Below are positions 1 through 34,846 of a stretch of 34,846 nucleotides of DNA, piece by piece. The first letter of the stretch is position 1; each line of letters starts with the position of its first letter. The notes beneath the pieces are model-generated. The model had not been told where the DNA came from. It saw only the letters and a list, made by a program, of their open reading frames with translations, and made no database searches. Origin of the DNA: an uncultured Gammaproteobacteria bacterium (GTDB taxonomy: Bacteria; Pseudomonadota; Gammaproteobacteria; Pseudomonadales; Porticoccaceae); NCBI GenBank assembly GCA_913060555.1, contig CAJXRS010000021.1, positions 1 to 34,846 on the forward strand, read 5' to 3'. Position numbers and translations under genes: made by a program.

Positions 1-36
1 TAGTCTCGTGGGCTCGGAGATGTGTATAAGAGACAG
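1..36. other. Nextera transposase/i7 adapter remnant (non-biological)
   Basis: Bases 3-36 read GTCTCGTGGGCTCGGAGATGTGTATAAGAGACAG, the Nextera Read 2 adapter; the preceding 'TA' matches the last two bases of the i7 index implied at the other end (CATGCCTA). Confidence 0.98.
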
Positions 37-2497: not shown

Positions 2498-3478
2498 ATG
2501 GCGATCAATTCCGTTCTGGGGCCGATCGAAGTGGAAGATCTGGGCACCACCTTGATTCACGAGCATCTCACCATCGGCTGGCCCGGCTGGGAGATGGACC
2601 ACCGCGATTTCGACCGCGGGAAGGAAGGTACGCGCGTCGCGGGGAAGTTGAGGGAGATGCGCGAGTTGGGCATTCGAAGCATGGTCGATCCCTGTCCCAT
2701 GGAACTCGGCCGCGACCCGGAATTCGCCGCCGAGATGTCTGACAAATCCGGCGTCCACATCGTGGTCGCGACCGGCCTGTACAACGATGCATTGGGTATT
2801 CCGCAGCATTTCCGGCTGATGGAAGTGGATGCCATCGCCGAGGTGTATGTGAAGGAAATCCAGGAGGGCATCGGCAGAACGGGCATCAGGGCCGGCATCA
2901 TCAAGACTGCCTGTGGTGGCATCCACGGCGTGACACCGCCCGGCCAGGGTATCAAGGACACCGAGGTCAAGTGCCTGCGCGCCGCGGCGCGCGCCTGCAA
3001 GGCGACCGGCGCTCCCATCCTGTGTCACAACGACGAATTCGATCCCTACGGCCGCGAGACACTCGATATCTTCGAAGAGGAGCAGGTGGACTTCAACAGG
3101 GTGCTGATCGGCCACGCCTGTGGGGTGGGCGACATGCGCTACTACTTCGACATTCTCGAACGCGGCGCCTGGCTGGGCTTCGACCGTTTCGGCATCGAGT
3201 CGATCGCCTCGGACAAGCTGCGGCTGGCGTCCCTGCTCGGCCTGCTCGCCGTAGGCTATGACCGCATCATGCTGTCCCACGATTCGCTGGAGTGCTGGCG
3301 CGGGCTGGACACCGGCGTGCTGCACGGCATGATGGCGGCCTCGCCGAACTGGAACAAGACGCATATCTCGCGCAATATTTTGCCGGCGATGCGCGAGGCC
3401 GGGGTGTCCCAGGAGGTCATCGATACCCTGATGGTCGGCAATCCCTGCAGCTACTTCGGTACCCACAGTCACGGCTAG
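2498..3478 (+). CDS. Phosphotriesterase-family (amidohydrolase-superfamily) metal-dependent hydrolase/lactonase
   Basis: 326 aa from MAINSVLGPIEVEDLGTTLIHEHL; metal ligands apparent: HEH, GIIKTACGG (carbamylated Lys), LCHNDE, LIGHACG, LSHDSL. Confidence 0.88.
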   Translation: MAINSVLGPIEVEDLGTTLIHEHLTIGWPGWEMDHRDFDRGKEGTRVAGKLREMRELGIRSMVDPCPMELGRDPEFAAEMSDKSGVHIVVATGLYNDALGIPQHFRLMEVDAIAEVYVKEIQEGIGRTGIRAGIIKTACGGIHGVTPPGQGIKDTEVKCLRAAARACKATGAPILCHNDEFDPYGRETLDIFEEEQVDFNRVLIGHACGVGDMRYYFDILERGAWLGFDRFGIESIASDKLRLASLLGLLAVGYDRIMLSHDSLECWRGLDTGVLHGMMAASPNWNKTHISRNILPAMREAGVSQEVIDTLMVGNPCSYFGTHSHG

Positions 3479-3636: not shown

Positions 3637-4860
3637 ATGACCAGGAAACATGTACTGGAAGGGGTGCGCGTACTCGACTTCACCCATGTGCTGGCGGGGC
3701 CCAGCTGTACCCGGCTGATGGCCGAAACCGGCGCCGAAGTGATCAAGGTGGAGGCGGCGCCGGCGGGCGATATGGTGCGCCAGATGCCCGCTCTCAAGAA
3801 CGGGCGCAGCGGCTATTACATCCAGCAGAACCGCGGCAAGCAGTCGCTCTGCCTGAACCTCCGTGACCCGCAGGCCCAGGAGGTCGTGCACAAGCTGGCG
3901 GGCGAGGTCGACGTGGTGGTGGAGAACTTCACGCCCGGGGTGATGAAGCGCCTCAACATCGATTATCCCAGGCTCAGCGAACTCAACCCCGAGCTGATCA
4001 TGTGCTCGATCTCGGCCTTCGGGCAGCGCGGGCCGCTGGCCGACCGCCCGGGCTTCGACTACATCGCCCAGGCCTATGCCGGAGTGATCGACATGATCGG
4101 CGAGGAGAACGGCTCGCCCTATTTTCCCGGCCTTGGCATGGGTGATGTCTCTACCGGCGCCCACGCCTATGGCGCCATCAGCGCGGCGCTCTTCCATCGT
4201 GCCATGGGCGGCGGCGGGCAATACCTGGATATCAGTTTGCTCGACTGCCTGTTCCATTGCCACGAGATCAATGTCCAGGGCTACGACGGCAGTGGCGGAC
4301 AATTGGTGCCGCACCGCTCCGGCGCCCACCACTTTGCGGTGGCGCCCCTGGGCATGTTCAAGGGCAAGGACAAATGGCTGGTCATCATCGCCATTGGCGG
4401 CCAGTGGGCGAATCTGCTCAAGGTCATCGGCCGCGAGGATTTTCTCACCGACCCGCGGTTTGCCGACAATGCCGGGCGCGTCGCCAACAAGCAGCTGTTG
4501 ATCGATGCCATCGAGGCCTGGTTGCAGACCACCGAGAGCGACGCGGAGGCGGTGCGCATCCTCGAGGAGAACCATGTGCCGGTGGCACCCGTGTTGAGTG
4601 TGCCCGAGGCCATGGCCCATCCCCATCACAATGAGCGCCAGACGGTGCGGACCATCAGTGACCGCGCCTTCGGCGATCTGAAGATCCCCGGCGTGCCGCT
4701 CCGGTTCTCTCAGTACCCGGAGTTTCTGCCCCTGCAGGCGCCCTTCCTGGGCGAGCACAATGCCCAGGTGCTGAAAGCCTTGGGTTATTCCGACGACGAC
4801 ATCGCGGCCCTGGCCGCGGCCGGTGTGCTGGCCAGCGAGCCGCTGCCGGCATCCGCCTGA
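3637..4860 (+). CDS. CaiB/BaiF (family III) CoA-transferase, paralogue 1 of 4
   Basis: 407 aa; VRVLDFTHVLAGPSCTRLMAETGAEVIKVE, VENFTPGVMKRL, SISAFGQRGPLADRPGFDYIAQA, GMGDVSTGAHA (catalytic Asp region). Confidence 0.93.
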   Translation: MTRKHVLEGVRVLDFTHVLAGPSCTRLMAETGAEVIKVEAAPAGDMVRQMPALKNGRSGYYIQQNRGKQSLCLNLRDPQAQEVVHKLAGEVDVVVENFTPGVMKRLNIDYPRLSELNPELIMCSISAFGQRGPLADRPGFDYIAQAYAGVIDMIGEENGSPYFPGLGMGDVSTGAHAYGAISAALFHRAMGGGGQYLDISLLDCLFHCHEINVQGYDGSGGQLVPHRSGAHHFAVAPLGMFKGKDKWLVIIAIGGQWANLLKVIGREDFLTDPRFADNAGRVANKQLLIDAIEAWLQTTESDAEAVRILEENHVPVAPVLSVPEAMAHPHHNERQTVRTISDRAFGDLKIPGVPLRFSQYPEFLPLQAPFLGEHNAQVLKALGYSDDDIAALAAAGVLASEPLPASA

Positions 4861-4879
4861 CGCGGCGAGAGGAGCTGTC

Positions 4880-6094
4880 ATGGCCAGCAAGCCGATCCTC
4901 GCGGGGTACCGGATCCTCGATTTCACCCAGTACCTGGCCGGGCCCAGTGCCACCCGCCTGATGGCGGAGATGGGTGCCGAGATCATCAAGATCGAGATGG
5001 CGCCCTATGGTGATCCCAGCCGCGCCTTTCCCTACCGCAAGCACAAGCGCAGTGCCTATTACGTCCAGCAGAATCGCGGCAAGAAAAGCCTGTGTGTGAA
5101 TTTCAAGGACGGGCGCAGCCGAGAGATCGTGCGCGATCTCATCCGCGAATCCGATGTGCTGATCGAGAACTACGCCCCGGGCGTGATCGGCCGGCTCGGC
5201 TTCGGCTGGGAGCAGGTGCGGGCGATCAACCCGCGTGCGGTGATGTGCTCGATTTCGGCGTTCGGCCAGACCGGTCCGCTCAGCCACCTGTCCGGCTTTG
5301 ATTACATCGCTCAGGCCTATGCCGGGGTGACCGCGGTGATCGGTGAGCCGGATCGTCCGCCGAGCCTGCCGATGCTGGCTATCGGCGATGTCACCACCGG
5401 CGTGCACGCCGCCGGTGCGCTGGGCTTCGCGCTGCTCGACGTTCACCGCACCGGGGTCGGTCAACACCTGGATATTTCCCTGCTGGACTGCTATTTCCAT
5501 CATCACGAAGTCAATGTCCAGGCCTACTCGGCGAGTGGCGGCGCGATCGTCCCGCGCCGCGCCGGCGCCCACCACTATGCGGTGGCGCCTACCGGGATTT
5601 TTCGCGGCCCCGAGGGTTACATCATGATCCTCGCCCTGCTGCACCAGTGGCCGGTGCTGTGCAAGGCGATGGGCCGAGAGGATCTGATTGCGGATGAGCG
5701 TTTCAAGACCAATGAATTGCGAGTCGCCAATCAGCAGGCGCTGATCGCCATCATCGAGGCATGGTTGCAGGGCTTTGCCACCGACGCCGCGGCGATCGAG
5801 GCGCTGCAGGCGGTACGGGTTCCGGTGGCGCCCATCCTCACCGTGGCCCAGGCCATCGAGCATCCGCACCACCGGGCGCGGGGCACGGTACGGCGGGTTT
5901 CCGACCGCATGCTCGGCGAGTTCGATATCCCGGGGGTGCCATTGCGCTTTTCGGCGCACCCCGAGCTGCTGGAGTTGCAGGCACCCCTGCTCGGTGAGCA
6001 CAACGGCGAATTACTGACCGCTCTGCTGGGCTACGAGGCTGAGCGGGTGGCGGCCCTGGAGCAGGAGGGTGTGCTGGTGGCCGCGGCGCACTGA
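4880..6094 (+). CDS. CaiB/BaiF (family III) CoA-transferase, paralogue 2 of 4
   Basis: 404 aa; YRILDFTQYLAGPSATRLMAEMGAEIIKIE, IENYAPGVIGRLGFGWE, AIGDVTTGVHA; aligns collinearly with paralogues 1, 3 and 4. Confidence 0.93.
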   Translation: MASKPILAGYRILDFTQYLAGPSATRLMAEMGAEIIKIEMAPYGDPSRAFPYRKHKRSAYYVQQNRGKKSLCVNFKDGRSREIVRDLIRESDVLIENYAPGVIGRLGFGWEQVRAINPRAVMCSISAFGQTGPLSHLSGFDYIAQAYAGVTAVIGEPDRPPSLPMLAIGDVTTGVHAAGALGFALLDVHRTGVGQHLDISLLDCYFHHHEVNVQAYSASGGAIVPRRAGAHHYAVAPTGIFRGPEGYIMILALLHQWPVLCKAMGREDLIADERFKTNELRVANQQALIAIIEAWLQGFATDAAAIEALQAVRVPVAPILTVAQAIEHPHHRARGTVRRVSDRMLGEFDIPGVPLRFSAHPELLELQAPLLGEHNGELLTALLGYEAERVAALEQEGVLVAAAH

Positions 6095-6165
6095 CCGCGG
6101 CGCAACAGCGAGCGGACCGCCCTGTGGTCTGGATCGATAACGGTTTTTGAATCCGGGATTCTGAG

Positions 6166-7383
6166 ATGGTGCCCAAACACGTACTCGACGGCTACCGGGT
6201 GCTGGATTTCACCCAGTATCTGGCCGGCCCCGCTGCCACCAATCTGATGGTGCAGCTGGGTGCCGAAGTGATCAAGCTGGAAATCGGCCCCCACGGCGAA
6301 CCCGTGCGCAACTTTCCCTATTGCCGGGCGGGTCGCAGCGGCTATTTCATTCAACAGAACCGCGGCAAGAAAAGTGTGTGTCTGGATCCGAAACATCCGC
6401 AAGGCCTGGACATCATCAAGCGCCTGCTCAAGCACAGCGATGTGTTCATCGAGAACTTTGCACCAGGAGTGATCGGCCGACTCGGTCTGGGTTGGGAAGA
6501 GGTTCGCAAGATCAACCCGAATCTCATCATGTGCTCGATTTCGGCGTTCGGCCAGGAGGGGCCACTCGCCAGCCATCCGGGCTTCGATTACATCGCCCAG
6601 GCCTATGCCGCGGTCAGCGATCTGATCGGTGAGCCCGACCGCGCACCCTCGATGCCCATGCTGGCCTTTGGCGATGTGGGCACGGGCGTGCACGCGCTGA
6701 CCGCGGTGGGCTATGCGCTGCTCGATCGCGAGCGCAATGGCGCCGGCGGCCAATGGCTCGACATCTCGCTGCTGGACAGTTATTTCCACTATCACGAGGT
6801 CAGTGTTCAGGCCTATTCGGCCAGCGGTGGGCGCATCGAACCCCGACGCAGCGGCTCACACCACTATGCGGTGGGGCCGAGCGGCATCTTCAAGGCCAGG
6901 GAAGGGCACCTGATGATCCTGGCGCTGCTGCACCAGTGGCCCATTCTGTGTCGCGCCATGGGCCGCGAGGATCTGATCGAGGACCCGCGCTTCCGGGACA
7001 ACGACGCCCGCATGGCCCACCGCGAGGCCATGATCGCGCTCATCGAGGACTGGCTGCAGTCGCTGCCTTCGGATGCCGCGGCGCTGGCGATTCTGGAAGA
7101 GGCGCGGATTCCCTGCGCGCCCATTCTGTCGGTACCCGAGGCCATGGCCCATCCGCACCTGATCGAGCGGCGTACAGTGCGAACCATCGAGGATCGCCTG
7201 CTGGGCAAATTGCAGATTCCCGGAATGCCCCTGCGCTTTTCCAAATACGAAGTCGATGAAAATATTCAGGCGCCCCTGCTCGGTGAGCACAACGCCGAGG
7301 TGCTCAAGCGGCTGCTGCTGTGCCCCGCAGAGCAGGTATGGGATTGGGAGCGGCGCAAGGTGCTGTTTGCCAAGCCCGTGTAG
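6166..7383 (+). CDS. CaiB/BaiF (family III) CoA-transferase, paralogue 3 of 4
   Basis: 405 aa; YRVLDFTQYLAGPAATNLMVQLGAEVIKLE, IENFAPGVIGRLGLGWE, AFGDVGTGVHA. Confidence 0.93.
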   Translation: MVPKHVLDGYRVLDFTQYLAGPAATNLMVQLGAEVIKLEIGPHGEPVRNFPYCRAGRSGYFIQQNRGKKSVCLDPKHPQGLDIIKRLLKHSDVFIENFAPGVIGRLGLGWEEVRKINPNLIMCSISAFGQEGPLASHPGFDYIAQAYAAVSDLIGEPDRAPSMPMLAFGDVGTGVHALTAVGYALLDRERNGAGGQWLDISLLDSYFHYHEVSVQAYSASGGRIEPRRSGSHHYAVGPSGIFKAREGHLMILALLHQWPILCRAMGREDLIEDPRFRDNDARMAHREAMIALIEDWLQSLPSDAAALAILEEARIPCAPILSVPEAMAHPHLIERRTVRTIEDRLLGKLQIPGMPLRFSKYEVDENIQAPLLGEHNAEVLKRLLLCPAEQVWDWERRKVLFAKPV

Positions 7384-7430
7384 GCGTGGAACGAAACAGA
7401 GCTAAAGCGCACCAGCGGAGGAGAATCGCC

Positions 7431-8672
7431 ATGCAACCACAGCACATCATGGAGGGCTATCGAGTTCTGGATTTCACCCAGTTTCTCGCCGGTCCCACCA
7501 CCACCCGGCTGATGGCCGAGATGGGAGCAGAAGTCATCAAGGTCGAACTGGCTCCCGCCGGCGATCCCACCCATCTGCTGCCCCACCGCCGTGCCGGACG
7601 CAGCGGCTACTACATTCAGCAAAATCGCGGCAAAAAAAGTGTCTGCGTCGATATCCGCAATCCCAAGGGTCTGGCGCTGATCAAGGAACTGGTCAGGTCC
7701 TGCGACGTGCTGCTGGAAAATTTTTCGCCCGGGGCCATCGGCCGCTTGGGGCTGGGTTGGGAGGTGGTCCACGCCCTGAATCCGGAACTCATCATGTGCT
7801 CGGTGTCGGCCTTCGGCCAGACCGGGCCCTTGTCCAGCCTCCCGGGTTTCGATTACATCGCCATGGCCGTATCCGGGGTCATGGACATGATCGGCGACCC
7901 CGATCAGCCGCCGTATTTCCCCATGCTGGGTATCGGCGATGTCAGCGCCGGGGTCCACGCCCTGGCGGCCATCAATGCGGCGCTGCTCTACCGTTACAAG
8001 ACCGGGCGCGGTCAGTACATCGACATTTCGCTGCTGGATGCCTATTTCCACAGCCACGAAATCAATGTTCAGGCGTATTCGGGCAGCAAGGGGAAGATTC
8101 AGCCCAGGCGCTCGGGCCATCACCACTACGCGGCCGCTCCCCTGGGGCTGTTCCATTGTCGCGATGGTTACCTGTTCATGGTGGTCATGGCGCGCCAGTG
8201 GGGACCTTTGTGCAAGGCGATGGGGCGTGACGATCTCGCCGACAATCCTAACTACGACACCAATCTCAAGCGGGTCGAGCGACGCGCGGAGATCGTTGCC
8301 ATCATCGAGGACTGGCTGCGCGACTACGATCGCGATGACGCGCTGCGCATCCTGCAGGACATGCATGTGCCGGTGGCGCCAGTGCTCAGCGTTCCCGAAG
8401 CCATGGAGCATCCGCACCTGATCGAGCGCCAGGTGGTGCGCACCATCCAGGATCGCGGCTATGGTGAACTGCAGATTCCAGGGATCCCCCTGCGCTTTTC
8501 CGAGTTTCCCGAACCCCTGGATCTCCAGGCCCCTTACCTGGGCGAGCACAACCGCGAGGTGATGACGAAGTTTGGCGGAGTCACTGCACAAGAGGTTGCG
8601 GCACTGGAGGCCGAAGGCGTGCTTCATACCCAGCCGCTGCCAGAGGGTGTGGCCACCGTGGCCGGCCTCTGA
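7431..8672 (+). CDS. CaiB/BaiF (family III) CoA-transferase, paralogue 4 of 4
   Basis: 413 aa from MQPQHIMEGYRVLDFTQFLAGPTTTRLMAEMGAEVIKVE; GIGDVSAGVHA; start preceded by GGAGGAG. Confidence 0.93.
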   Translation: MQPQHIMEGYRVLDFTQFLAGPTTTRLMAEMGAEVIKVELAPAGDPTHLLPHRRAGRSGYYIQQNRGKKSVCVDIRNPKGLALIKELVRSCDVLLENFSPGAIGRLGLGWEVVHALNPELIMCSVSAFGQTGPLSSLPGFDYIAMAVSGVMDMIGDPDQPPYFPMLGIGDVSAGVHALAAINAALLYRYKTGRGQYIDISLLDAYFHSHEINVQAYSGSKGKIQPRRSGHHHYAAAPLGLFHCRDGYLFMVVMARQWGPLCKAMGRDDLADNPNYDTNLKRVERRAEIVAIIEDWLRDYDRDDALRILQDMHVPVAPVLSVPEAMEHPHLIERQVVRTIQDRGYGELQIPGIPLRFSEFPEPLDLQAPYLGEHNREVMTKFGGVTAQEVAALEAEGVLHTQPLPEGVATVAGL

Positions 8673-9365: not shown

Positions 9366-11039
9366 ATGCAGGCGCACAGTTACGGTTGCGGAACCGCTCA
9401 GGCTCCACTGATCTATCAGACTATCGGCGAATTGCTCGAGCAGATGGCCGTCGAGCACTCCGAGCGCGAGGCCTTGGTAATCCCCCATCAGGGTGTGCGC
9501 TGGACCTACGCCGAGTACCGCCGGGAAATCGATCGTCTCGCCACCGGCTTGCTGGCGCTGGGACTCCAGCCGGGCGATCGGCTGGGAATCTGGGCGCCCA
9601 ACTGCTACGAGTGGTGCCTCACCCAGTTCGCCAGCGCGCGCATCGGCGCCATCCTGGTCTGCATCAACCCGGCCTATCGGACCTACGAGCTCGAATACGC
9701 CCTCAACAAGGTGCAGTGCCGGGCGCTGATCACCGCGGAGTCCTTCAAGACCAGTCAATATCTGCGTATGTTGCAGGAGCTGGCCCCGGAGCTGGACTCC
9801 TGTGTACCGGGCGCGCTGGAAGCCACCCGGCTGCCCCACCTCGAGACCGTGATTCGCATGGGTGAGGCGCAGACCGCGGGCATGTTCAATTTCGGCGCCG
9901 TCTGCGAACTGGGTACCGACGTCGAGTATCGCCGCATGGCCGAGATCGGTGCCCGGTTGTCGCCGGACGATGCCATCAACATCCAGTTCACCAGTGGTAC
10001 CACGGGCAATCCCAAGGGCGCGACCCTGAGCCACTGCAATGTGCTCAACAATGGCAAGATCAATGGCGACATGATGCGCCTGGTGCCGGGCGATCGGGTG
10101 TGTATCCCCGTGCCCCTGTATCACTGCTTCGGGATGGTGATCGGCAATCTGGGGTGCCTGACCCACGCCGCCACCGCGGTGTTCCCGGGCGAGGCCTTCG
10201 AACCCCTGGCGACCCTGAAAACCGTGGCCGAGGAGCGCTGCACTGCGCTCCACGGCGTGCCCACCATGTTTATCGCCGAACTGGATCATCCGGATTTCGA
10301 CCGCTTCGATCTGAGCTCGCTGCGCACCGGCATCATGGCCGGCGCTCCCTGTCCGGTGCAGGTCATGGAGCAGGTGATGGGGCGCATGGGGATCGGGGAA
10401 ATCCTGATCGCCTACGGTCAGACCGAACTCAGCCCGGTGAGCCACATCACGGCCCCGGACGATGCCGTCGACAAGCGGGTCGGCACCGTGGGAAAACCCT
10501 GTCCCTACCTGGAGACCAAGATCGTCGACGACACCAACCTGGTGGTGCCCATCGGCGAAAAGGGCGAGATCTGTACCCGGGGTTACGCGGTCATGCTGGG
10601 GTATTGGGACGATGAGGAAAAGACCCGCGAGACCATCGACCGTGGCGGCTGGCTGCACTCCGGCGATATCGGGGTGATGGACGCCGACGGCTATGTCCAG
10701 GTCACCGGGCGCATCAAGGACATGATCATCCGCGGCGGTGAAAACGTCTATCCGCGCGAGGTGGAGGAGTTTCTCTACAGCCATCCGGGCATCCAGGAGG
10801 TCCAGGTGATCGGCGTGCCCGACGAGAAGTACGGCGAACAAATCTGCGCCTGGATCAAGTGCCGCGAGGGCCATGTGCTCACCGAGCAAGAGGTCCGCGA
10901 CTTCTGCCGCGACCGGATCACCCATTTCAAGGTTCCCCGTCACATCCGCTTTGTCGAGGACTATCCGATGACGGTCACCGGCAAGATCCAGAAGTTCAAG
11001 ATGCGTGAGACCATGATCGAGCAGCTCGGCCTGGGCTGA
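9366..11039 (+). CDS. AMP-binding acyl-CoA synthetase / fatty-acid-CoA ligase family
   Basis: 557 aa; [64 protein letters not shown] (ANL superfamily motifs). Confidence 0.93.
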
Positions 11040-15349: not shown

Positions 15350-16846
15350 TCAGGCAGTGGGCTCCGAGATGATCCGGGCGCTGAAGCGGGCGATGTGAAA
15401 GGTCCTGTCGATCACCGCGGTAAGCGACAGTGAGACCTCGGCGTCCGCGGTGCGGACGCGTACATAGTCGGCCGGCTTGAACAGGCCGCTGGGCAGGAGC
15501 AGTTCAGGATCCTGCCCGGTGGCAGTCCCGGACAGCAGGAAAGCCCGCAAAAAGGGCGCCGGCAGCGACAGGTCGAGACCGCGTACTGCGGCCGGCTCGA
15601 AGTCCTCGGGCAGCCAGTGGACGCCGGCGGCGGTATCGAATTCCGGGGTCAGCTGGGTCCAGCGGAGCAGCCCCAGCCGCCAGCCGGTGGCTTCCAGGGC
15701 TGCCACCAGTTCGCCTGGGGAAATCTGCCCGGGAGTACCGCGGAGCCGCAGCTGGGCGCCGGCCGCGCTGCGGTCCCTGTAGTGCGCGCGCAGCCAGGAG
15801 CCATCCGCGTGCTGTCCGGGAGTTTCGCTGTTCGCCGGCGACAGGTGTTCCGGAAAGCTGTCGTCGTCCTCACAGCCGGTCAGTGCCCGGTGGGCGTGCT
15901 CCAGCCCGATCGCCAAGCGGACCCGGTCGTCAGCGCGGCGGTGCAGTTCGCCGCGCACCTGAGGGCGGGTCCAGTAGCGCCCCAGGTCGCGGACGAGGCG
16001 TGGTACCAGCAGCCCCTGGTTGGTGGCATCTTCGTCCAGCGCCTGCACCAGCCCGCGTACGCAGAGGCGCGAGCAACCGACGATCGCCCGGTTGCCGAGA
16101 TAACCGGGCGGCCGCGCCGAGTCGGGATCGATCAGTAACAGCCCGGTCTTGCCACCGAGGCGGGCGCGGTCGGCGTAGCAATCCAGGAAGGCGGCGATCT
16201 GCTTGATTTCGGCGCTCCGGAAGCGGGTCGGATTGAGGCTGCCCAGCAACAGGGGTTTCAGATAGGCAGAGCGGATCCCGGTCGCGCGCGGATGACTCGC
16301 CCCGGCGTGCTCGATGCACGTGGCGCAGGCGAGCTGGTAAAGGGCGTGCAATTCACTCCAGAGCCGCCCGGGGACAGGCAGTTGCCGCCGCCAATAACCG
16401 AGCAGCAGTTGCCAGAGCGTGACCAGCGCCGCTTCGATGAAGGTGGCCAACAGATCGAAATCCACGCTCGCCCGGCTACAGCTGCGGACCCCGCGCAGCT
16501 CGACCTCGTACTGGGCGTTGAGCAGTGCGATGGGCAACGCGGCGGCTTCGCGGGGGTGCGCCGAGACCGGGTGCGCGAGCAGTTCCTCGGCGGTGGTGAA
16601 GAGCAGCGGCTTGGGATCGAAAAGCCGCTCCCGGTTGGCGCGCGGGTTGTCGGCCAGCGGCAGGTTGCCGCGCAGAATGCGTTCCAGTGCCGCGGCACGC
16701 GCTGCGGGCGTGAGCAGTTCCAAGGCTTCCCAGTGCGGGGAGGATTCGGGCGAGGACAGCGTTCGGGGCGCCGTGCTCCCATCCCGTACCAACCGGTTGA
16801 GAATCCGCTCGAGGTCGTCACCGAGGTGTCGCTGGTGCTGCTCCAT
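15350..16846 (-). CDS. Conserved hypothetical protein (498 aa), function unknown
   Basis: Continuous 498-aa ORF from MEQHQRHLGDDLERILNRLVRD; start overlaps the epmB 3' end by 29 bp and the gene is co-directional with the FimX-like gene. No motif I can name with confidence. Confidence 0.75.
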   Translation of the reverse strand: MEQHQRHLGDDLERILNRLVRDGSTAPRTLSSPESSPHWEALELLTPAARAAALERILRGNLPLADNPRANRERLFDPKPLLFTTAEELLAHPVSAHPREAAALPIALLNAQYEVELRGVRSCSRASVDFDLLATFIEAALVTLWQLLLGYWRRQLPVPGRLWSELHALYQLACATCIEHAGASHPRATGIRSAYLKPLLLGSLNPTRFRSAEIKQIAAFLDCYADRARLGGKTGLLLIDPDSARPPGYLGNRAIVGCSRLCVRGLVQALDEDATNQGLLVPRLVRDLGRYWTRPQVRGELHRRADDRVRLAIGLEHAHRALTGCEDDDSFPEHLSPANSETPGQHADGSWLRAHYRDRSAAGAQLRLRGTPGQISPGELVAALEATGWRLGLLRWTQLTPEFDTAAGVHWLPEDFEPAAVRGLDLSLPAPFLRAFLLSGTATGQDPELLLPSGLFKPADYVRVRTADAEVSLSLTAVIDRTFHIARFSARIISEPTA

Positions 16847-17906
16847 CGGATGATTCTTCCCTGGCTTCGCCGGTCGGTGCGGCAGCCTGTTGTGGGTATT
16901 CGCCAACCGGCACCTTGTGGGGCAACGCCGGGATTTCCTCCACCAAACGGGGGACCAGATAGCCCGGCAGCCGTGCCAGCAATTCTTTGTGCAGCCCGAC
17001 TGCGCGGGATCTCGACACGGAGAAGTGTGCGGCGCCCTGCACGCGGTCCAGCAAGTGTAGATAGTAGGGCAGGATCCCGGCCGAAAAAAGCCCCTCGCTG
17101 AGGGCCGCGAGCCGGTCGGCGCCATCGTTGATGCCGGCGAGGAGCACGGACTGGTTGAGGACGGTGACCCCGGCATGGCGCAATCGCGTGACTGCGGCGG
17201 TCAGTTCGCCGTCGATTTCGTTGGCGTGGTTGATATGCAGCACCAGGGAGGACTCCAGGGTGCTGGCGCCGAGCCAGCTCAGCAGTTCGCGGTCGATCCG
17301 TGCCGGGATCACCACGGGCAGCCGGCTGTGGATCCGCAGGCGGCGGACATGGGGAATAGCCGCCAGCTCATCCGTCAGCCAGGCCAGCATGGCGTCGCTC
17401 GCCGCCAGGGGGTCGCCGCCGCTGTAGATCACTTCGGAGATGGTGGCGTCGCCCCGGATATAGTCGAGCGCCTGCTGCCACCGGCGGCGGCCCGGAGTAT
17501 TGGCGGCATAATCGAAATGGCGGCGAAAGCAGTATCTGCAGTGGATGGCGCAGGCGGGACTGACCAGCAACAGCACTCGGCCCCGGTATTTGTGGATCAG
17601 CCCGGGCGCCGGGTTCGCCTCGCTTTCGCGCAGCGGGTCCGGGCTGTAGCCGGGCGCCGCCGCCAGTTCGCGCGCCGCGGGCAATACCTGGAGCAGCAGT
17701 GGGTCGTCGGGGTTGCCGGGCTCCATGCGCGCCAGATAGGGGCGCGGGACGCGCACCGGGAACTGGTCGGCGGCCGCTGAGGCCATGCCCAGGGCAGCGG
17801 GGTCGAGGTCCAGCAGGCCCGCCAGCTCTAGCGGGTCGCGGATCGCCCGCGCCAGCTCGGTCTGCCAGTCGCACGACTGCCGTACCGCGATGCCCTGCTG
17901 TATCAT
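16818..17906 (-). CDS. epmB: EF-P beta-lysylation protein EpmB (lysine 2,3-aminomutase-like radical SAM)
   Basis: 362 aa from MIQQGIAVRQSCDWQTELARAI; radical SAM motif CAIHCRYCFRRHF; EVIYSGGDPL; LPYYLHLLDRVQGAAHF; divergent from efp. Confidence 0.93.
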   Translation of the reverse strand: MIQQGIAVRQSCDWQTELARAIRDPLELAGLLDLDPAALGMASAAADQFPVRVPRPYLARMEPGNPDDPLLLQVLPAARELAAAPGYSPDPLRESEANPAPGLIHKYRGRVLLLVSPACAIHCRYCFRRHFDYAANTPGRRRWQQALDYIRGDATISEVIYSGGDPLAASDAMLAWLTDELAAIPHVRRLRIHSRLPVVIPARIDRELLSWLGASTLESSLVLHINHANEIDGELTAAVTRLRHAGVTVLNQSVLLAGINDGADRLAALSEGLFSAGILPYYLHLLDRVQGAAHFSVSRSRAVGLHKELLARLPGYLVPRLVEEIPALPHKVPVGEYPQQAAAPTGEAREESSDGAAPATPR

Positions 17907-25652: not shown

Positions 25653-26831
25653 ATGCAACCATTACAGGGCATTCGCATCGTCGAAGTCACCACCAATGCC
25701 TCGGGGCCGTTCGCGACCGGTGTGCTCGCCGACCAGGGGGCGGACGTGATTCGCCTGGAAACCATCGGCGCCGGCGACCCTTCGCGCCACGTGGGCGGGG
25801 TCCGCGAGGGCGTGACTTCCTATAACGCCAGCATGAATCGCAACAAGCGTTCGCTGGCGGTCGACCTCAAGAACGCGCAGTTGCGCCCGGCGCTGTATGC
25901 GCTGATCCGGACCGCGGACGTCTTCGTGCAGAATTCCCGACCCGGCGCCCTGGACCGCTGCGGCTTCGGTTATCCGGATCTGCACGAGGTGAACCCGGAT
26001 CTGATCTATGTATCCATTTCCGGGTTCGGAGCCGATGGTCCCGCAGCCCATCAACGGGTCTATGATCCGGTGATCCAGGTCACCTCCGGATTCGCGGCGG
26101 TGCAGGGTCACGGCGGCCGGCCGCAACTGGTCAAGACCATCGCCAGCGACAAGATCGCTGCCCTGACCGCCGCCCAGGCGATCTCCTCGGCGCTGTTCGC
26201 CCGTGCCATCGGGCGCACGGGTGGCCATCACGTCGAGTTGTCGATGCTCGACGCCAGCCTGCAGTTTCTGTGGCCGGACGCGTTCTGGAATCATGGTTTC
26301 GTCGGCGGTGACTTTCAGCCCAAGCCGCTGCTTGCCGAGTTCTACCGGGTGTTGGAAACCGCGGACGGCTATGTCACCACCATCGTGGTCGGCGATGAGG
26401 AGTTCAAGGGCGCCTGCCGTGCCCTGGGACTGGAGGCGCTGCTGGACGAGCCCCGCTTCGCCTCCATCTTCGAGCGATTTTCGAACTATGGCGAGCTGTT
26501 GGTGGCCTTTGAAGAGAAGACCCGCAACTTGACCGCCGCCGAAGTCGTCGAACGCATGGACCGCGAGGGCGTGCCCTGCGGCAAGGTGAACACCCTGGAG
26601 GAGGTCATCGAAGACCCCCGGGTGCAGCATTCCGGATCCCTGGTGGAATACGATCACCCTCGGGCCGGCCGCCTGCGTCAGGCGCGGCCGGCGGCGGTGT
26701 TCGCAGGAGAACCCGCACCTGTACCCGGGCCGGCGCCCGGGCTTGGGGAGCATACCGAGCAGGTGCTGAAGTCCCTGGGCTGCTCGGACGCCGAGATCGC
26801 CACCTGGCGGGCGGCGGGCGCCATCGGCTGA
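25653..26831 (+). CDS. CaiB/BaiF (family III) CoA-transferase, divergent fifth member
   Basis: 392 aa; IRIVEVTTNASGPFATGVLADQGADVIRLE, NKRSLAVDLKN, VQNSRPGALDRCGFGYPDL, SISGFGADGP; catalytic Asp region TIASDKIAALTAAQAI. Confidence 0.92.
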   Translation: MQPLQGIRIVEVTTNASGPFATGVLADQGADVIRLETIGAGDPSRHVGGVREGVTSYNASMNRNKRSLAVDLKNAQLRPALYALIRTADVFVQNSRPGALDRCGFGYPDLHEVNPDLIYVSISGFGADGPAAHQRVYDPVIQVTSGFAAVQGHGGRPQLVKTIASDKIAALTAAQAISSALFARAIGRTGGHHVELSMLDASLQFLWPDAFWNHGFVGGDFQPKPLLAEFYRVLETADGYVTTIVVGDEEFKGACRALGLEALLDEPRFASIFERFSNYGELLVAFEEKTRNLTAAEVVERMDREGVPCGKVNTLEEVIEDPRVQHSGSLVEYDHPRAGRLRQARPAAVFAGEPAPVPGPAPGLGEHTEQVLKSLGCSDAEIATWRAAGAIG

Positions 26832-34797: not shown

Positions 34798-34846
34798 CTG
34801 TCTCTTATACACATCTCCGAGCCCACGAGACTAGGCATGATCTCGT
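34798..34846. other. Nextera adapter with i7 index (TAGGCATG) and P7 start (non-biological)
   Basis: CTGTCTCTTATACACATCTCCGAGCCCACGAGAC + TAGGCATG + ATCTCGT: Nextera read-through followed by an index matching N706 and the P7 tail. Confidence 0.98.

Follow-up and report, generated by a model that had tools for sequence, protein, structure and literature searches.

A conserved four-gene array of family III CoA-transferases and its co-distributed partner genes in Porticoccaceae-type gammaproteobacteria

In family III CoA-transferases an active-site aspartate attacks the donor acyl-CoA, giving an acyl anhydride and free CoA, after which an aspartyl-CoA thioester is formed and the CoA passes to the acceptor acid. 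Intramolecular CoA transfer and lyase activity also exist in this family, as in Mct and IaaL. The described enzymes which most resemble the four genes reported here (C1–C4) are SUGCT (succinyl-CoA:glutarate/hydroxymethylglutarate CoA-transferase) and a Brucella formyl-CoA transferase-like protein (PDB 10uh/9zav; TM 0.86). Both share with C1–C4 the fold, a collinear full-length alignment and the catalytic Asp, but they are the products of single genes with approximately 33–36% identity over the structural alignment, whereas C1–C4 form a four-gene cassette. In gene arrangement the nearer parallel is BbsEF, a family III enzyme likewise specified by adjacent paralogues within one catabolic operon. 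BbsE and BbsF are, however, two subunits of one enzyme, whereas the quartet comprises four copies, all with the Asp and one of them dispensable in a related genome. A third likeness is found in SAR202 (Chloroflexota), where an expansion of CaiB/BaiF paralogues accompanies one of luciferase-like (FMNO) enzymes (PMC5395668, PMC6306507); the available portions of these reports describe no fixed, ordered four-gene cassette, while the gammaproteobacterial family considered here has one across genera.

The window, that is, the whole stretch of 34,846 nucleotides which was analyzed, was originally predicted to carry four complete CaiB/BaiF genes on one strand. The ORFs bore this out in coordinates and sizes (Table 1), and each product covers the PF02515 (CaiB/BaiF) profile from 1 to 366 of 366, at scores to be read against a cut-off of 23.3 bits. 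The genes are separated by 19, 71 and 47 bp. All of the motif blocks quoted in the prediction are present and collinear in an alignment of C1–C4, including the Asp region, which reads GDVSTG, GDVTTG, GDVGTG and GDVSAG in C1 to C4, respectively. Retention of the catalytic residue was likewise confirmed: all four carry Asp in the column of Frc Asp169, as do 42 of 42 quartet proteins when the members of the related arrays are aligned.

Table 1. Coordinates of the quartet, its flanking genes and the broken C4 orthologue
Feature	Sequence	Coordinates	Strand	Remarks
Phosphotriesterase-family hydrolase	Window	2498..3478	+	PF02126 E 2e-57; PDB 3f4c E 1.5e-62
C1, family III CoA-transferase	Window	3637..4860	+	407 aa; PF02515 380.6 bits, E 1e-113
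C2, family III CoA-transferase	Window	4880..6094	+	404 aa; PF02515 365.5 bits, E 4e-109
C3, family III CoA-transferase	Window	6166..7383	+	405 aa; PF02515 363.0 bits, E 2e-108
C4, family III CoA-transferase	Window	7431..8672	+	413 aa; PF02515 383.7 bits, E 1e-114
Acyl-CoA (AMP) ligase, PRK12583 type	Window	9366-11039		Downstream of array
Broken C4 orthologue	L032	12500-13700		Internal deletion, frame change, in-frame stop

A pattern scan for the array covered 85,000 species, each represented by a single genome, with the best 80 loci taken; it was also sought in 112 genomes, representing 14 genera, of the window's own family (Porticoccaceae-type). Together these yielded 13 arrays with the order C1-C2-C3-C4 (the window, L024–L034 and L038), all from metagenome-assembled genomes and some of them interrupted by contig ends or gaps, and within the family the quartet is confined to three of the 14 genera. 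Among 35 genomes drawn evenly from other gammaproteobacteria, no matches at E<=1e-70 formed a run longer than a tandem pair. Two arrays depart from the pattern. L038 has a fifth, more distant CaiB gene between C2 and C3, and in L032 (genome G007) C4 is broken, approximately 90 codons including the QQNRGKKS block being gone, with a change of frame and a later in-frame TAG; C1–C3 of the same array are intact and not fast-evolving. An apparent loss of C1 in L029 was ruled out, as the break coincides with an assembly gap of 100 N. A search of the open-access literature for CaiB in Porticoccaceae or for a four-gene array found no description, which is weak evidence; within the literature searched, what is new is the conserved four-gene arrangement of a known enzyme family together with its co-distributed partner genes.

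Pairwise identity among C1–C4 is 54.6–61.4% at the protein level and only 45–52% at third codon positions, so that the four must have split long ago. In maximum-likelihood trees each array position forms its own orthologue clade with one member per genome (support 99–100, and 100 for each of C2, C3 and C4). Non-array paralogues are interleaved among the four clades. In the quick tree a single exclusive clade of C1–C4 was rejected (AU p=0.0009, at a cost of 86 log-likelihood units) while a clade of C2, C3 and C4 was not (AU p=0.215). The sister of C1 (support 99) consists of a seven-gene array in G007 and four copies in G018, and single copies from elsewhere in the window's genome also fall in the clade grouping with C1. 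All four copies nevertheless belong to one supported subfamily, and the C2-C3-C4 clade is not rejected, so that they cannot be regarded as unrelated acquisitions. Recent tandem duplication or gene conversion is ruled out by the third-position divergence, the orthologue clades and the AU test. The trees and divergences thus indicate that the quartet is an old cassette within a repeatedly duplicating subfamily and not a fresh amplification.

The original prediction of local amplification therefore stands as regards common ancestry within the subfamily and fails as regards a recent time scale. Separate, distantly related clades had been named as the outcome that would speak for independent acquisition; the clades are separate and old, but they lie within one subfamily. 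Its further proposal, that function has been retained, agrees with the Asp in every copy, the persistence of the array across genera and pairwise dN/dS values of 0.04–0.12 for each of C1–C4 wherever dS could be estimated. Each copy is under purifying selection.

The two multicopy relatives of C1 were observed at L134 9944-19501 (G007:C46), which holds seven consecutive CaiB/BaiF genes of the quartet subfamily, and at G018:C162 (L136), where four related CaiB copies stand at a contig end. Although of the same subfamily, they comprise different paralogues with different neighbours, and the window's genome has no array of them.

An AlphaFold2 model of C1 (pLDDT 88.1, pTM 0.86) matched the family III fold when compared with the PDB, the best solved structure being human SUGCT [9br6, TM 0.88]. 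None of the NCBIfam equivalog cut-offs within the CoA-transferase family was reached by C1–C4, which scored 240.6–269.2 bits against the Frc model [TIGR03253, cut-off 504.2], 223.3–258.0 bits against the succinate:glutarate CoA-transferase model [NF052585, cut-off 750] and far below the cut-off of the Mct model. The position of Frc Gln17 is Leu in all four. Across the arrays 27 columns are invariant within each orthologue group yet differ between groups; several of them lie near catalytic positions of Frc, including those aligned with Frc 15, 22, 44, 172 and 174. This pattern would fit copies with differing substrates without proving it, and may also arise with no change of substrate.

Two further genes track the quartet. 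A divergent Amidohydro_3 gene, in one to three copies, adjoins C1 in the two sister genera, and in most of their arrays two luciferase-like (LLM) genes also lie beside C1. The Amidohydro_3 protein is most similar to D-aminoacylase, while the nearer of the two luciferase-like proteins scores above the cut-off for TIGR03617, an F420-dependent subfamily. Among the 112 family genomes, each of the 13 that carry a C3 orthologue also has an orthologue of the Amidohydro_3 gene (77–100% identity), as does G041, and no other genome has one; the LLM orthologue (74–100%) occurs in 12 of these 13 and in G041, a genome with one high-scoring CaiB match. More distant Amidohydro_3 paralogues (47–58%) are found only in the quartet-bearing genera. 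Throughout the window's genus both partner genes are unlinked from the quartet; in the window's genome they are located on contigs C54 (Amidohydro_3, 16007-17722) and C20 (LLM, 16303-17337). Much of the co-distribution reflects shared descent, as the three genera may belong to a single clade. A single functional module is best supported by a joint absence within genus g7: neither G107 nor G108 has the quartet, either partner orthologue or cofD, all of which are present in the five other genomes of the genus, this within-genus loss amounting to two genomes, of which G108 is 82% complete.

A complete F420 biosynthesis cluster (npdG, cofE, cofD, cofC and cofGH), with each gene above a curated equivalog cut-off, is present on contig C19 of the window's genome (L148 4544-11258; about 22.5–29.3 kb of G000:C19), beside an F420-type LLM gene. 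The cofD gene occurs in 21 of the 112 family genomes, of which 12 belong to the 13 with the quartet and nine do not. In its 2.95 Mb the window's genome also contains 22 PF02515 genes, with a further fragment at a contig end, and 29 luciferase-like PF00296 matches, an expansion like that of SAR202 in a gammaproteobacterium.

We would put at about even the chance that the quartet is a catabolic cassette of long standing, inherited together and made up of four specialised, probably homodimeric transferases serving one F420/LLM-linked pathway. Each of C1–C4 would be an interlocked homodimer in which the conserved Asp attacks an acyl-CoA donor to give a mixed anhydride; judged by the closest solved relatives, succinyl-CoA is the best guess for this donor. 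The anhydride would give way to the aspartyl-CoA thioester, from which CoA would be transferred to a specific carboxylate with no expenditure of ATP. Each of the four copies would act upon an acid of its own, the acids probably following one another in a single pathway which would also employ the D-aminoacylase-like amidohydrolase and the TIGR03617-type, probably F420-dependent, luciferase-like oxidoreductase. We infer the homodimers, the donor, the difference in substrates and the type of pathway (one for organic acids that are alicyclic or recalcitrant in some other way), the breakdown of recalcitrant or alicyclic matter being suggested by the likeness to SAR202. Enlarged CaiB/BaiF and luciferase-like families turn up repeatedly, and without explanation so far, in bacteria regarded as degraders of refractory dissolved organic matter; a fixed-order cassette with two tracking partners offers a defined unit for study, of four CoA-transferases, an amidohydrolase, an LLM oxidoreductase and F420.

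The original prediction had offered either a hetero-oligomer or specialisation of the copies, and of the two specialisation fits better. That the quartet products assemble with one another in the manner of BbsE and BbsF, whether in pairs or all four together, would be in keeping with the fixed gene order and the co-inheritance of the copies, and BbsEF [9fn0], itself a two-protein family III enzyme, has a matching fold with a TM of about 0.83. We regard such assembly as unlikely. An obligate four-part complex is made less probable by the break in C4 of L032, where C1–C3 are intact and conserved, and because all four copies keep the catalytic Asp none of them looks like a non-catalytic partner. 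By sequence and fold, moreover, the nearest enzymes are SUGCT and the formyl-CoA transferases rather than BbsEF, which scores 113–153 bits against the quartet as compared with about 241–249 for SUGCT, a distance gauged from scores and fold.

One or more copies might instead be intramolecular CoA-transferases or lyases, independent of a donor, which shift CoA from one end of a diacid to the other or expel a leaving group; we consider this quite unlikely. Mct and IaaL provide precedents within the family, and in the alignment the region of the Frc 259–263 loop is missing from C1–C4. The glycine loop is missing in Mct as well, but also in CaiB and SptAB, which are intermolecular (PMC11659651), and its absence is therefore no guide to the one mode or the other. 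For the SAR202 paralogues, too, a new type of lyase reaction has been proposed. The low scores of C1–C4 with the Mct model speak against the intramolecular reading. That all four copies catalyse a single reaction, their number serving dosage or regulation, as their tandem placement, common active-site Asp and a generally paralogue-rich genome might suggest, appears distinctly improbable for copies just 55–61% identical, each a separate lineage conserved across genera, with alignment columns that are fixed within each orthologue group.

An extension of the specialised cassette is a relay, in which four active transferases, associated or channelling, would pass CoA along a series of acids of one F420/LLM-dependent pathway from one initial thioester. 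If so, a whole recalcitrant molecule could be degraded at the cost of that single thioester. We know of no described multi-transferase CoA relay of this kind, and think it hardly probable here.

With regard to the flanking genes, the hydrolase upstream of the array, on the same strand, has PTE-like lactonases/organophosphorus hydrolases as its nearest solved relatives. Only the nearest relative, L038, shares it at this position, and its inclusion in the core cassette is unsupported. The downstream ligase, which sits between phosphoribosyltransferase and SDR genes, was ruled out as a part of the cassette; neither L024 nor L038 has it at that place. Predicted promoters and terminators between the quartet genes occurred at the level of shuffled sequence and were uninformative, and no RNA element in the window attained its gathering score. 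A distant fifth PF02515 gene (25653-26831), outside the quartet subfamily, lies among housekeeping genes. Lastly, an exact 19-base Nextera mosaic-end sequence occurs at 18-36 (+) and 34798-34816 (-) of the window; it is adapter left at the contig ends, and yields the peptide MCIRDS within ORF 8-592.
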